Assembly (NCBI GenBank): GCA_026388185.1
Contig: JAPLKG010000017.1
Coordinates: 186,001-250,000, forward strand
DNA from: Candidatus Eisenbacteria bacterium
Lineage (GTDB): Bacteria > Eisenbacteria > RBG-16-71-46 > JAFGJU01
Length of the DNA stretch: 64,000 bases
Direction: 5' to 3'
The position numbers and the translations under genes were made by a program. Under the pieces are notes generated by a model. The model was given only the letters and a program-made list of their open reading frames with translations, did no database searches and had not been told where the DNA came from. Shown piece after piece: positions 14,278-21,225 of the stretch (its first letter is position 1; each line of letters opens with the position of its first letter).

Positions 14278-14289
14278 CGTCTAATCGCC
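14278..14289. repeat. Core-like 12-mer CGTCTAATCGCC, copy 1
   Basis: Identical to 18951-18962 beside the array promoter. On the minus strand it reads GGCGATTAGACG and contains the stop codon of the PLD-type gene; ATTAGAC is one base from the attC core GTTAGAC. Confidence 0.5.
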
Positions 14290-15951: not shown

Positions 15952-16020
15952 GGGCCCTCCCTTCGATAACGGTTAAAGGACTGACGATGAGGAATTGTTG
16001 AAACGAAACCACTCCGCGTC

Positions 16021-16083
16021 GTCGAACGCTCGTGCTCAGCGGCGCGGGCGCAGCCCGCGTCCGTCTGCATGCGCTTGTTAGAC
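16021..16083 (-). repeat. attC-like recombination site 3 (after isochorismatase gene)
   Basis: Minus strand: left core GTCTAAC, arm AGCGCATGC; centre GCGGGC/GCCCGC forms a perfect six-pair stem; right arm GCACGAGC, core GTTCGAC. Outer arms pair with two mismatches. Length 63 bp, 34 nt after the isochorismatase stop. Confidence 0.65.
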
Positions 16084-16116
16084 GGCAGTCCATCTGGTCC
16101 GTGACGCTGCGGACTT

Positions 16117-16719
16117 CTACCACATGCTGAGCACGACGTCGTACCTTCCATAGACATCCTTTTTCAGCTCTTCCGCTTTCGGATTAGCCCAGTCGTGCAT
16201 CCACTCAGAAACAAGTGGCATCCACGTCATCGGCACAACTCCCGCCTGTAACATGCGCTGGATCCCATAGGTGTGAGCCTCCGGCGAGGCGTCACCGCCA
16301 GCATCGAACAGGCCGTACACATCAAAGCCTTCACGCAATCCATGAATGGCCGTGTACGCAAAACACATGCTGGTCCACAGGCCCGAGACGACAAGCTTTC
16401 TGCGACCGGTCTTCTTCACGGCCTGCAAGACGCGCTCGTCCTCGAAAGCATCGAAGCCGGGCACCTTGCGCGCAATCACCTCCTGGCCGGGGAAAAGGTC
16501 CGTGATTTCCTTGATAAACTCTCCGTTCCCCTCGGGCCATATGGAGGTCAGGACCGTCGGTACCTCCAGAATCTTCGCGGCCTTAGCCGCAGCGACAGCG
16601 CTGTTGCTGATGGCGTTCCTATCGCCGGACGCCGCCCCCTTGAACATCGTAGGCTGGTAATCCACCAAGAGCAGCACACTGTTCTGAGCCGTTAACATCT
16701 CCAATTTGGGATCTCCCAT
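16117..16719 (-). CDS. Isochorismatase-fold cysteine hydrolase
   Basis: 200 aa. Cysteine-hydrolase superfamily (nicotinamidase, isochorismatase, YcaC). Catalytic Asp in LLLVDYQ (about residue 21), Lys in EVIARKVPGFDAF (about residue 86), and nucleophile Cys in SGLWTSMCFAYTA (about residue 119). The WTSMC context and the C-terminal region resemble the YcaC-like branch, whose substrate is not known. ATG 16719 with AGAGGAGG upstream. It lies between two attC-like sites (16021-16083 and 16774-16861), making a textbook single-gene cassette. Confidence 0.88.
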   Translation of the reverse strand: MGDPKLEMLTAQNSVLLLVDYQPTMFKGAASGDRNAISNSAVAAAKAAKILEVPTVLTSIWPEGNGEFIKEITDLFPGQEVIARKVPGFDAFEDERVLQAVKKTGRRKLVVSGLWTSMCFAYTAIHGLREGFDVYGLFDAGGDASPEAHTYGIQRMLQAGVVPMTWMPLVSEWMHDWANPKAEELKKDVYGRYDVVLSMW

Positions 16720-16773
16720 GTTTATCTACCTCCTCTTTGATTCTTTGTGACTCCACACGCTTGTCTGCTCGCT

Positions 16774-16861
16774 GTCTAACGGCTCGGCTAAGCTGCGGCG
16801 CGCGAACGCTTTGTGTTAGCCGCGAGCGGGCCGCGCCGTCAGCTTGAGCCGGTAGTTAAGC
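16774..16861 (-). repeat. attC-like recombination site 4, best preserved
   Basis: Minus strand: left core GCTTAAC fits RYYYAAC and right core GTTAGAC fits GTTRRRY. Inner arms GGCTC/GAGCC and AAGC/GCTT pair, and the centre has GGCGCG/CGCGCC. At 88 bp it falls in the normal attC range and folds into an imperfect palindrome. It lies 61 nt after the stop of the 115-aa membrane protein gene. Confidence 0.8.
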
Positions 16862-16922
16862 GGCCCGAAGGAATGCTGACACAACTGTGCGTCTGCCACC
16901 GACGCGTGGCCGTCTACGGTCA

Positions 16923-17270
16923 TCACTTGCTTGTCGGTGACGGCGCAAGAAGTCCAGCCAAGGCGCCGATGGCGGCAGCACCCAGCGCCGTTAGCACATC
17001 AGGGATATTCGGCGAACTGCCGGTCGAAGCAATGGCGCTAAGGTAAATGGCCCCGAATGTCGCCGCGATGCAGACGCCGCCAAGGGCAAGCACTACGATG
17101 CGGTACGTCCAGCGATCAGAAACGAATGCAGGGGGCGGCAGATCGCGCGTGACTTGCTTGGCCACCTCGCGAAGAGTGTCTTCTGGTTTCAGCTTTACCT
17201 GATCGAGGAGGCCAGGCGTGCTGAGCAGGTGATCGACGAGAATGTCCGCGGAACGCCGTGGTTCTGGCAT
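16923..17270 (-). CDS. Small membrane protein, unknown function
   Basis: 115 aa from ATG 17270 (TTGGAGG six bases upstream). An amphipathic, charged N-terminal half (LLDQVKLKPEDTLREVAKQV) is followed by two membrane segments (about 62-84 and 95-109; ALGAAAIGALAGLLAPS). No known domain recognised. Immediately followed by the best attC-like site, so it is probably the cargo of one cassette. Confidence 0.6.
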   Translation of the reverse strand: MPEPRRSADILVDHLLSTPGLLDQVKLKPEDTLREVAKQVTRDLPPPAFVSDRWTYRIVVLALGGVCIAATFGAIYLSAIASTGSSPNIPDVLTALGAAAIGALAGLLAPSPTSK

Positions 17271-17461
17271 AGAGTCCTCCAATGGCTACTGGGTACCGGA
17301 AACGAGCATGCCCAAGAAACTGACCGTAATACGCGGAAATGAGTGGCGCACAAACCGCGCCTGTGAATCTTGGTCGAAACTAGGAGGCTACCCCGCAGTT
17401 TGGGTGTCCGACTCGATTTCATGGTTAGCGTTCTTGTCACCTATCTCCCCAACCGGTCACG

Positions 17462-18334
17462 CTAGAAAGCTAGTGCAAGACCTGTCGAGAATTGATCGCC
17501 CTTGCTAAAGTTGGGCGCACCGCTGCCGTTCTCATAGCGAAAGTCGAGCGAATACTTGTCTTTAGTTATCGCTACGCGGATTAAGCACTCGAGCCGGTAG
17601 TATTCCTTACTATTCTTTATGTCGTACCAACCCGTCATAGTAGGCAGCAAGCGAATGCTCTCGGCCAAATCGAAACCATAAACCAACTCCGCTTTGACAC
17701 GTGCAATTGCTTGATCTGGCTTCTCGTCACTCTGGTCTGTATTGCCCCCTTCCGTAGAAGACGTGTTACTTGTAATGCTTATGTTCTCTTGGTCGCTGAA
17801 TTTGTAGCCGCCCTGAATGAAGAGGCCGAAGGCCCGATCCGGATCTAACCCGAATCGCGTTGAGTGAGCCAATTCGGCTTGGTTGATTGGCTCACGCGGG
17901 CCGAGCGGTGTCCATCCAAACTCCGCCAAAGCCACCGGGTTGTTAAAATCACGATCTGATTCAATTCCAACAGAAAAGGGTAGGACGTGTACCCACCCGA
18001 GATTGTCGGGCTCCCCATCTTGATCCAGTGGACGAGGCATTAGTATGAAGCCGCGAAGTTTAGCAAGCACGCTCTCAAAGGAATCATTGCCGCCAGTGCG
18101 TACTTCAACGGTGGGGCCAAGATAGCCAGCAATGCTATTTGTCGCGAAGTACCGACTCTCACTTAGCTTTGGACTGACCTTTGCTACGAACCCCAGCGCG
18201 TCCTTCTCTATCTCAGTGCGAATCACAGACCAACTGATTTCCCCTCCTAAACTGGCCGAACTATCTTCGGCGAGCGTGATGGCTGGGAAGGCAACCAGTG
18301 TTACAGCGAGCAAGAACCCTATACTTTTATTCAT
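17462..18334 (-). CDS. Exported outer-membrane beta-barrel-like protein, unknown function
   Basis: 290 aa with a clean signal peptide (MNKSIGFLLAVTLVAFP, cleavage after TLA). The mature part has alternating beta-strands with aromatic girdles and ends SKGDQFSTGLALAF, a typical barrel-closing strand with terminal Phe. A low-complexity loop (SNTSSTEGGNTDQSDEK) lies near residue 195. Start overlaps the stop of the upstream 120-aa gene (ATGA), so the pair is translationally coupled. Family not recognised; outer-membrane location is inferred from the C-terminal strand. Confidence 0.7.
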   Translation of the reverse strand: MNKSIGFLLAVTLVAFPAITLAEDSSASLGGEISWSVIRTEIEKDALGFVAKVSPKLSESRYFATNSIAGYLGPTVEVRTGGNDSFESVLAKLRGFILMPRPLDQDGEPDNLGWVHVLPFSVGIESDRDFNNPVALAEFGWTPLGPREPINQAELAHSTRFGLDPDRAFGLFIQGGYKFSDQENISITSNTSSTEGGNTDQSDEKPDQAIARVKAELVYGFDLAESIRLLPTMTGWYDIKNSKEYYRLECLIRVAITKDKYSLDFRYENGSGAPNFSKGDQFSTGLALAF

Positions 18335-18693
18335 GGCATAACCTTTTGTGAGAGTGTCGCGATCGTTTCACCTTTGAGGGGGCTGGGCCAGCCAGTCTTT
18401 TTCAATTTGATACCGCTTTTGTGACACGACTGGATAACGGAGGCGCAAAACAATTGTTCCGACGAATCGCCACTTATCGTGGCTCCTTCAAGCGCGGCGC
18501 CTAAATCAGTTGCGGTAAGAATTGCAGCAACATTGGGATAGCGTGCTGCAGCACTTGAGGCAATAATTTCATTGATAGCTGTTATTTCGGCGGGCTTGAG
18601 CTTCTTCGGATTGCACCAAGCGGCAAGCTGTTTACGCATAATGCGTTGCACTTCGCCGAGTTGGTATGCTTTGAGGTTAGTTGTGTCTGGCAT
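18331..18693 (-). CDS. Hypothetical protein coupled to the barrel gene
   Basis: 120 aa from ATG 18693 (AAGGGAG upstream). Mostly helical and soluble: AYQLGEVQRIMRKQLAAWC and NEIIASSAAARYPNVAAILTA. No signal peptide. I do not recognise the family. It overlaps the exported barrel gene by four bases, which implies a joint function. The open frame extends to 18834 but lacks a ribosome site there. First gene after the array promoter at 18965-18993. Confidence 0.6.
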   Translation of the reverse strand: MPDTTNLKAYQLGEVQRIMRKQLAAWCNPKKLKPAEITAINEIIASSAAARYPNVAAILTATDLGAALEGATISGDSSEQLFCASVIQSCHKSGIKLKKTGWPSPLKGETIATLSQKVMP

Positions 18694-18950
18694 AACGCTC
18701 TCCCTTCGTTGAATAGTGAACTCAATACGCTTCGCCCCACCTTTCCAAGCCAACCACGGCTTACGCCGTTTCCAGATAAGCGCCTTCAGAACGTCTTCCG
18801 TTCCGGATAACAGTCTTTGCCTGCCGATCTCCAATTGTCCTTCATCGAGACTCTGAGGGACAATCTTCGATCTGCATTTGGTCTTACAAAGAATGTCTAT
18901 TGTGTCTGAGCGCGTAGCTGTTGGTTATGCAAGAGGTGATGTGCCTGTCG

Positions 18951-18962
18951 CGTCTAATCGCC
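18951..18962. repeat. Core-like 12-mer CGTCTAATCGCC, copy 2 (possible attI remnant)
   Basis: Identical to 14278-14289. On the minus strand GATTAGACG lies directly after the -10 box of the array promoter, where an attI or first cassette junction would be expected. One base differs from the core GTTAGAC. Confidence 0.4.
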
Positions 18963-18964
18963 AC

Positions 18965-18993
18965 AAGATATCACATAAGCGGCATCATGTCAA
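18965..18993 (-). promoter_or_regulatory. Pc-like sigma70 promoter facing the cassette array
   Basis: Minus strand TTGACA, 17 bp, TATCTT: perfect -35 and good -10. It points away from glyS into the array; transcription would begin near 18958, at the core-like 12-mer, about 265 nt before the first gene. Confidence 0.7.
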
Positions 18994-19101
18994 GAACGAA
19001 CTACCGGCAATTTGTGAGGTATCTTGGGAGGATTGAGTGGCCGAAGGGCAAATCAGGCGTCGGGTTGGTGCGCGAGCGGCCGGCCTGAGCGGCGCCAGCC
19101 T

Positions 19102-21225
19102 CTACCTCCCCCGCCCCTGCTCCGCCTGCTCGGAGAGGCGAGAGAAGTCTGCGAGCTTCAGGAACTCGGACCGTACGAAGGCCAGAAGGCCGAGTCTAAT
19201 GTCCCGCACCTTCGCGTCCTGATCCATCACCAAGACGCCGTCGAAGAAGGCGTCTATCGGGGCTTTGAGGTTAAGTAGGTGCCCAATCGCGTCTCCGTAG
19301 TTTTCGCTCTTGACGGCACTCGAGATCAACCCGGAGGCCTCCCGCAGACCCTGGAAGAGATTGCGCTCAACCTCTTCGCGCAAGTCCTGGAGAACCGGGG
19401 TCGGGTACTCGTGGGTCTTCAATATGTTCGAGACTCGCTTGAAGGAGATAACGACTCCCGAGAACTGTTCATTTGATTTCCAGCGCGCGACCGCCTCTGC
19501 TTTGAGCCAGCTTCTGAAGGGGTCATCGCTGTCGACTGAAAGCACTGCGTCCACGACGTCCTGCTCTATGCCCATCTCGGACAAGATGAATGCGAGCCTC
19601 TGCGCCAGGAAAGAGGCGATCCCACCACTGAGGCCTGTCTCCCAACCCGAACCACCCTCGCCCCCGAACTTCCTCGACAGAAGCTGGATGGCCTTCTCGA
19701 CACAAGACGAGAGAGAGAAGTGTAGCTTCTTCTCGATCAAAATCCTCATAATGCCGTTGGCCTGGCGTCGCACGCCGTACGGGTCCTCGGACCCGGAGGG
19801 GATTCTGTCCGTCGCGAAACTCCCGACGATTTCGTCCAACCTGTCGGCGATGCTGACCGCGCACCCTTCGAGGCTCGATGGCAGAGTGTCTCCTGCGAAC
19901 CCCGGCAGGTAATGCTCCTTGATCGCCTGCGACACGCTCGCGTCCTCGCCCGCCCTGGCAGCGTATTCACCGCCCATTATGCCCTGGAGAGTCGTGAATT
20001 CTTTCCCGTCCCTAACCATCTCGCTCACGAGGTCAACCTTGCAGAGTAAGCCCGCTCTCTTCGCACTGGCCGCCCTGGACTTGTCCCAGCTTTCCATGAC
20101 GAATTGAGAAAGTTCCGCGAGCCGCTCGCTTTTGTCGAACACGGACCCCAGCGATTCTTGCCAGACGACGTCTTTGAGTAGCTCGAGCTGCCTGGCGATG
20201 CCGATTGACACGTCTTTTTCCCAGTAGAAGCGCGCGTCGTCAAGTCTCGCCCTGAGTACTCTCTCGTTTCCAACGCGCACGTTGTCCTCGCCCTCTTTCC
20301 CGCCGTTACGGAGCGTTATGAAGAAGGGCATGAGATTTCCGTGATCGTCCTGAACGGCGAAGTAGCGCTGATGCTCTCGCATTGCGGTCACGACGACGTC
20401 CCTGGGTAGCGCGAGAAAGTTCTTGTCGAACGAGCCCGCAACAGGGACGGGGAATTCCACCAGGTTGGCCACAATCCCGACGAGCTCGGGATCTTCCACC
20501 ACCGCTCCACCCTTCTTTCTTGCCTCCTCCCTCACGATTTTGTCGACCGCTCGCCGCCGCTCTTCTGCGTCAGCGATCACCCAGGCCTTCTCGAGTTTTC
20601 CCAAGTACTCGGAGGCGTTCTTGAGTTTGATCGGTTCGGGAGCGAGGAATCTGTTCCCGAAGGTGAGTCTGTCGGAATTGACGCCCGCAACTTCGAGCGG
20701 GACCACCTCGTCTCCGAGAAGGGCAACTATCCACCTTACGGGACGTCCGAATCTCACGGATGGCTCGGCCCAAGTCATGGTCTTGGGGAAGGAAAGCGAA
20801 AGGACTAGCGAGGGCAAGAACTCCGAGAGGACCTCCTTCGTAGGCTTACCGTGCTCCTTCACTATCGCGCAGACGTAGTCCCCCCGGCCAGTCTTTTTGA
20901 TCGCGAGACACTCCACGCCCACGCCCTGGCTTCGCGCGAATCCTTTCGCGGCCTGGGTCGGCGCACCCTTGTCGTCATACGCCACCCTCGACGCGGGTCC
21001 CACGACCTCTTTCTCCAGATCCTCCTGTCTCTCTGCGAGTCCCTTCACGTGTATCGTGAGACGCCTCGGCGTCGAATAGACGTCGATGGACGAACACTTT
21101 AGGCGTCGCGAATCCAGCTCCGACGCAGTCTTGTGACGCAGCTCCTGCACGGCCGGTTCGATGTAGCTTGCGGGAAGCTCTTCCACGCCGATTTCCAGCA
21201 AGAAATCCAAGGTCGATTGTTTCAT
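19102..21225 (-). CDS. glyS: Glycyl-tRNA synthetase beta subunit
   Basis: Large subunit of the alpha2beta2 bacterial GlyRS, involved in tRNA recognition. Start set at ATG 21225, overlapping the glyQ stop (ATGA), giving 707 aa; the open frame beyond that lacks similarity. Recognisable: [19 protein letters not shown] at the N-terminus, [20 protein letters not shown] near 150, [20 protein letters not shown] near 400, [16 protein letters not shown] near 500, and a C-terminal DALR-type anticodon-binding region ending before the Arg/Gly-rich tail. Last gene of its cluster. Confidence 0.96.

Follow-up and report, generated by a model that had tools for sequence, protein, structure and literature searches.

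In Rhs/CDI orphan arrays, variable payloads alternate with pieces of a conserved gene that are truncated but keep a fixed 3' edge. Gene-less integron cassettes that bear promoters have been described in Vibrio (PMC11014356) and in oral Treponema (PMC6557892), and CALIN in IntegronFinder 2 denotes two or more attC sites (PMC9024848). The locus analysed here lies beside glyS in the window, by which we mean the whole 64-kb stretch of DNA analysed (C17:186001-250000 of the draft genome G000, which is 98% complete and holds 2.62 Mb in 20 contigs).

As in the Pc-attI platform of IntI integrons, a probable promoter points into a row of small, unrelated genes on its own strand; a GTT-edged site stands before the genes, one attC lies downstream and divergent tyrosine recombinases are encoded elsewhere in the genome. 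Unlike IntI integrons, the locus has no IntI, its site is a conserved non-palindromic sequence, its promoter occurs at about 30 places rather than one, and each gene has a terminator and a promoter of its own. The window resembles a CALIN (PMC9024848) in having an attC without an integrase, but it is not one, because it has one attC only and two are required. The likeness to the Vibrio and Treponema cassettes (PMC11014356, PMC6557892) is that promoters within the array would drive the next gene, although those cassettes are flanked by attC and recruited by IntI, whereas attC is absent from most junctions here. Like Rhs/CDI orphan arrays (PMC3967940 is one example), the arrays of G000 have variable payloads between truncated fragments of a head gene with a fixed 3' edge; the payloads here are separate genes with their own promoter, and not toxin tips.

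We consider it probable (roughly 68%) that the locus holds a genuine sigma-70 promoter at the head of a module of roughly 250 nt (18993-18749) made up of promoter and leader, one of a lineage-specific family that would express imported accessory genes. The features of the window that bear on this reading, all on the minus strand, are as follows.

19102..21225, minus strand: glyS (glycyl-tRNA synthetase beta), 70% identity to G002, start ATG placed by eye
18965..18993, minus strand: predicted promoter TTGACA-17-TATCTT with extended -10 (TGTGATATCTT), based on the sequence, paralogous copies and GTGATAYNNT counts
18951..18964, minus strand: putative transcription-start region GTGGCGATTAGACG, matching GTGGCTGATTAAGC directly after the array -10, no GTT core
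18911..18954, minus strand: leader module A, GACGCGACAGGCACATCACCTCTTGCATAACCAACAGCTACGCG, based on own-genome repeats
18750..18819, minus strand: leader module C, a dispersed repeat of about 70 nt with many copies
18749..18783, minus strand: 35-nt leader core GCGCTTATCTGGAAACGGCGTAAGCCGTGGTTGGC, sequence conserved, no covariation, no codon pattern
18748..18754, minus strand: GTTGGCT, right conservation edge, att-like (consensus GTTNGGC), with GTT at 18754-18752
18331..18693, minus strand: first ORF after the leader, 120 aa, ATG at 18693, no Pfam match
17462..18334, minus strand: 290-aa ORF, weak beta-barrel outer-membrane similarity, below cut-off
16923..17282, minus strand: 119-aa ORF, no Pfam match
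16774..16861, minus strand: attC, 88 nt, R'' GCTTAAC, L'' CGGCTCAAGCTG, L' CAGCTTAGCCG, R' GTTAGAC
16117..16719, minus strand: isochorismatase-family gene after the attC (PF00857, E=6e-25)

The original prediction, of a TTGACA-17-TATCTT promoter facing the array from the glyS side, holds exactly for the motif at 18993-18965. The -35 box TTGACA occupies 18993-18988 and the -10 box TATCTT 18970-18965, and the 17-nt spacer between them ends in TGTGA at its 3' end, giving an extended -10. The promoter is directed away from glyS (stop 19102), whose end lies 109 nt from it, and into the minus-strand gene run. The motif alone is not beyond chance, because the minus strand of the 64 kb holds 12 -35/-10 pairs of equal quality and because shuffles of the stretch 16000-19400, in which this promoter is the sole sigma-70-like site, contained a mean of 1.6. 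Its significance comes from the recurrence of copies elsewhere in its own genome, where a query of 18850-19060 matched three further places. The promoter itself is kept at C8:517 kb (TTGACATGATG...TGTGATATCTT), TTGACA...TTGTGATATGTT and TGTGATATGTT are kept at C8:219 kb, and at C14:107 kb the leader is kept and the promoter is not. Only these C8 and C14:107 kb copies are strongly similar to the window copy, while with the array promoters it shares short stretches only (-35, -10 and GTGGC.GATTA). The array promoters read TTGACAGGCAAGC-17-TATGCT followed by GTGGCTGATTAAGC, with a 17-nt spacer in every copy that has an intact array-type TTGACA. A near-consensus promoter was found upstream in 12 of 32 leader copies versus 1% of shuffles, and the second common promoter type, GTGATAYNNT, in 7 of 14 dispersed leader copies versus 2 of 700 shuffles. 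On this comparison of copies, the site at 18993-18965 is very probably a real, working sigma-70 promoter. Conservation of the promoter in relatives without an array, named at the outset as the refuting case, was not seen: the promoter region had no match in 58 relatives, none of them close, and in G002, of the same family, glyS is followed directly by a gene reading as pyrR and then by pyrB.

The core-like GATTAGACG had also been proposed as a possible attI remnant. It does lie at the expected start point (18959-18951), but as a recombination core it reads ATTAGAC and not GTTRRRY, lacking the obligatory GTT. We read it as the putative conserved start region of the promoter family, because the array promoters carry GTGGCTGATTAAGC at the same position; TATCTT-GTGGCGATTAGACG in the window matches TATGCT plus GTGGCTGATTAAGC in the arrays. 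The attI remnant reading is thus not supported by the sequence. One further occurrence of GATTAGACG is at 14286 in the window, where GGCGATTAGACG (14289-14278, minus strand) repeats 12 nt identical to 18962-18951 at the stop codon of a PLD-domain gene. No attI with a GTTRRRY core adjoins the promoter, and the GTTGGCT edge is about 200 nt farther downstream. The GTT at 18754-18752 is a better att-like edge than GATTAGACG, and such an edge is expected of an integron core.

RNA polymerase would start at about 18958 and transcribe the leader and then the minus-strand ORFs. The leader ends at a sharp core (...CCGTRGTT, then NGGC) with what appears to be gene-specific sequence directly after it. Repeats of leader module A were found at C8:218992 (E=2e-8), C8:517426 (9e-7) and C14:107237 (4e-5), and copies of module C are 79-83% identical, with a best E of 7e-14. 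A sequence model of the 35-nt core detected 30 copies in G000; in 58 further genomes it gave no match at E<=0.01. Nearly all scanned leader copies have a same-strand ORF starting 11-75 nt downstream, and these ORFs are mutually unrelated. Information per column was 1.3-1.6 bits at TT, weak over NGGC and about 0.1 bit beyond. GTT was kept in 24 of the 30 core copies, and 10 of these 24 had GTTRRRY against a random expectation of 1 in 16, the leader copies being of common ancestry and the column counts not independent.

Two other identities for the leader were rejected. As a coding remnant ('...VLSGEEDVLKALIWKRHKP' and a stop) it did not have more variable third codon positions, and in the short forms the frame is lost; as a palindromic attC, the core had an upstream partner arm no better than shuffles in almost all copies. 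A GTDB-wide pattern scan returned two chance matches, both inside genes reading as lipoyl-domain, and relatives of the leader, head gene or recombinase were not found in viral contigs. One leader copy (L076 at about 7.5 kb, C8:217.5 kb) begins directly after an apparent tRNA-Leu 3' end. The promoter-leader family appears to be undescribed in the sources searched, and it is more interesting than the single window site.

Arrays of unrelated genes with repeats between them were observed on C1, C10, C11, C13, C18 and C19. Each repeat joins a 3' piece of the head gene to a terminator, followed by the promoter and then the leader, and the array unit, closed by the GTT, recurs between unrelated genes, so that each gene has its own promoter. 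The head gene encodes 175 aa, is lysine-rich and has no Pfam match (MAKKAKKGNGKAK...GNRLRAVMAGKK, L068:11057-11602); G000 has 23 whole or partial matches to it, many of them truncated, and the 46 further genomes of the class have none. Head genes that are complete or almost so, each preceded by upstream sequence of its own, occur at C1, C11, C13 and C19, while the fragments between genes have a variable 5' length and a fixed 3' edge. The C11 array spans about 13.6 kb (L074:13069 to L075:6700, C11:25068-38700) and contains about 12 unrelated same-strand genes, including DUF4062, a histidine phosphatase, a TPR protein, a SIR2-like protein and membrane proteins, with the promoter-leader repeat before each. 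No head-gene fragment was found in the window. A 31-nt repeat, perhaps an insertion-element end, directly follows the stop of the 290-aa gene (17461-17431, minus strand) and was also found at C19:4121 (97%) and C2:23500 (93%). Within the minus-strand gene run, 13863-13274 and 11950-11517 read by eye as MazE/MazF-like and BrnT/BrnA-like toxin-antitoxin pairs.

A copy of the module stands before unrelated accessory genes about 30 times, and because of this we regard the promoter as doing an integron promoter's job. The motif and its paralogs fit a Pc-like role in driving the same-strand run of unrelated genes. The part of the claim that implied an IntI integron was not borne out, since no IntI was found. 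The window copy would therefore work like an integron Pc, but not as the attI of an IntI integron. Genes may reach the position behind the GTT edge either by recombination at the core or by homologous exchange between long repeats.

The first alternative, tentative and in our view unlikely, is a new integron-like platform in which Xer-type recombinases beginning MKLST would insert cassettes at the GTT of the leader core and a divergent promoter would express them, the window having lost its recombinase. The genes concerned lie elsewhere in the genome.

L071:5616-6907, L072:12386-13195, L074:5540-6517 and L068:4320-5177: four Xer-type recombinases, each divergent from a leader or array

These four tyrosine recombinases form one Xer-type clade (MKLST...) and are 73-80% identical to the C14 query copy, while relatives in other genomes reach at most 37% identity and plasmids held distant Xer relatives only (at most 35% among the matches listed). 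All four are divergent from a leader or array that shares their contig, and none of them has the IntI-specific insert. The recombinase at C14:6044 (C14a, 288 aa) lies 382 nt from an oppositely directed leader core, that at C14:32401 (C14b) is 5'-truncated with its 5' end overlapping a leader core in antisense, and those on C11 and C1 occupy the minus strand, 6-7 kb from arrays that run on the plus strand. In C14a, C11 and C1b a divergent sigma-70-like promoter is found about 390 nt away from where the recombinase starts, the promoter stretches of C11 and C14b are related to dispersed ones at C14:39.5 kb and C11:340.8 kb, and inspection by eye finds the catalytic R-K-HxxR-H-Y in all three full copies. 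On C1, an IS91-like transposase gene (L068:2024-4071, by eye) lies beside the tyrosine recombinase gene.

The four loci have what may be called an integron-like layout with another recombinase, and an integron-like origin of another kind is possible because related promoters adjoin divergent Xer-type recombinase genes; the GTTNGGC edge and the frequency of GTTRRRY among the GTT copies also fit. The core, however, is non-palindromic, with neither an attC-like partner arm nor covariation, and the 5' ends of the head-gene fragments vary, unlike site-specific units. The window contains no recombinase gene, C11 and C1b have no core beside the promoter, and the C14b gene is truncated. The fuller proposal is doubtful when taken as a whole: a second kind of integron in which an Xer-type recombinase is combined with a divergent promoter and with a 35-nt site, non-palindromic and ending in GTT before NGGC, with the window as a recombinase-less outpost and with arrays that collected unrelated genes, each with its own promoter and terminator.

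Homologous exchange underlies the second alternative, a Rhs-like displacement, which we judge improbable. Recombination via long repeats, each running from head gene through terminator and promoter to leader, would replace the gene behind a leader and push the old ones downstream, and the displaced genes would carry truncated fragments. This process would leave the complete or almost complete head genes seen at C1, C11, C13 and C19, and also the inter-gene fragments, which differ in 5' length while their 3' edge is fixed. It does not explain the dispersed copies without head-gene pieces, the window copy among them, or the association with recombinases.

Much less probable is an ordinary IntI-integron remnant (a degenerate CALIN) in which Pc and attI persist and intI was lost. 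In its favor is the convincing attC at 16861-16774, which lies between two minus-strand genes and had a structural scan score of 11 with no core mismatch. Four class 1 integrons have attC sites in the same range, and none of ten shuffles was as good. The scan was validated on those four integrons, whose attC sites it recovered, although degenerate sites may escape it. The accessory genes are varied and the C11 array has a second attC-like site (L075:4973-5070), but the attC at 16861-16774 was the only one in the window to pass the strict scan, and no attC palindrome was found at the other gene junctions. No IntI over the cut-off was found in G000 (98% complete, draft), the best TIGR02249 score being 94 bits versus 265, and with IntI1 as the query the alignment breaks off at the IntI-specific insert, which is absent from 7 of 7 aligned recombinases. 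GATTAGACG lacks a GTT, and the many copies of promoter and leader form a family that does not go with attC sites. The original prediction of an integron surviving without its integrase stands as far as no integrase is nearby and one attC lies downstream, but an IntI-integron origin is unsupported because of the missing IntI in a genome 98% complete and a single attC below the CALIN threshold.

A structured, riboswitch-like RNA leader is highly unlikely, since the better folding of the window leader than of shuffles (z=-2.4) and its position in 5' UTRs are offset by the absence of covariation in the two alternative core hairpins counted, of pairs from RNAalifold and of any Rfam match in a scan of 8-22 kb, and by unrelated downstream genes.

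If the preferred reading of a lineage-specific promoter-leader family is true, a little-known bacterium expresses imported genes by means of a standard promoter-leader piece placed before each of them. If the stronger reading, with a recombinase of its own, is true, the capture of genes into expressed arrays would have arisen with a non-IntI recombinase and without hairpin attC sites. Integron function would then be separable from its textbook parts, in a system that can be tested.
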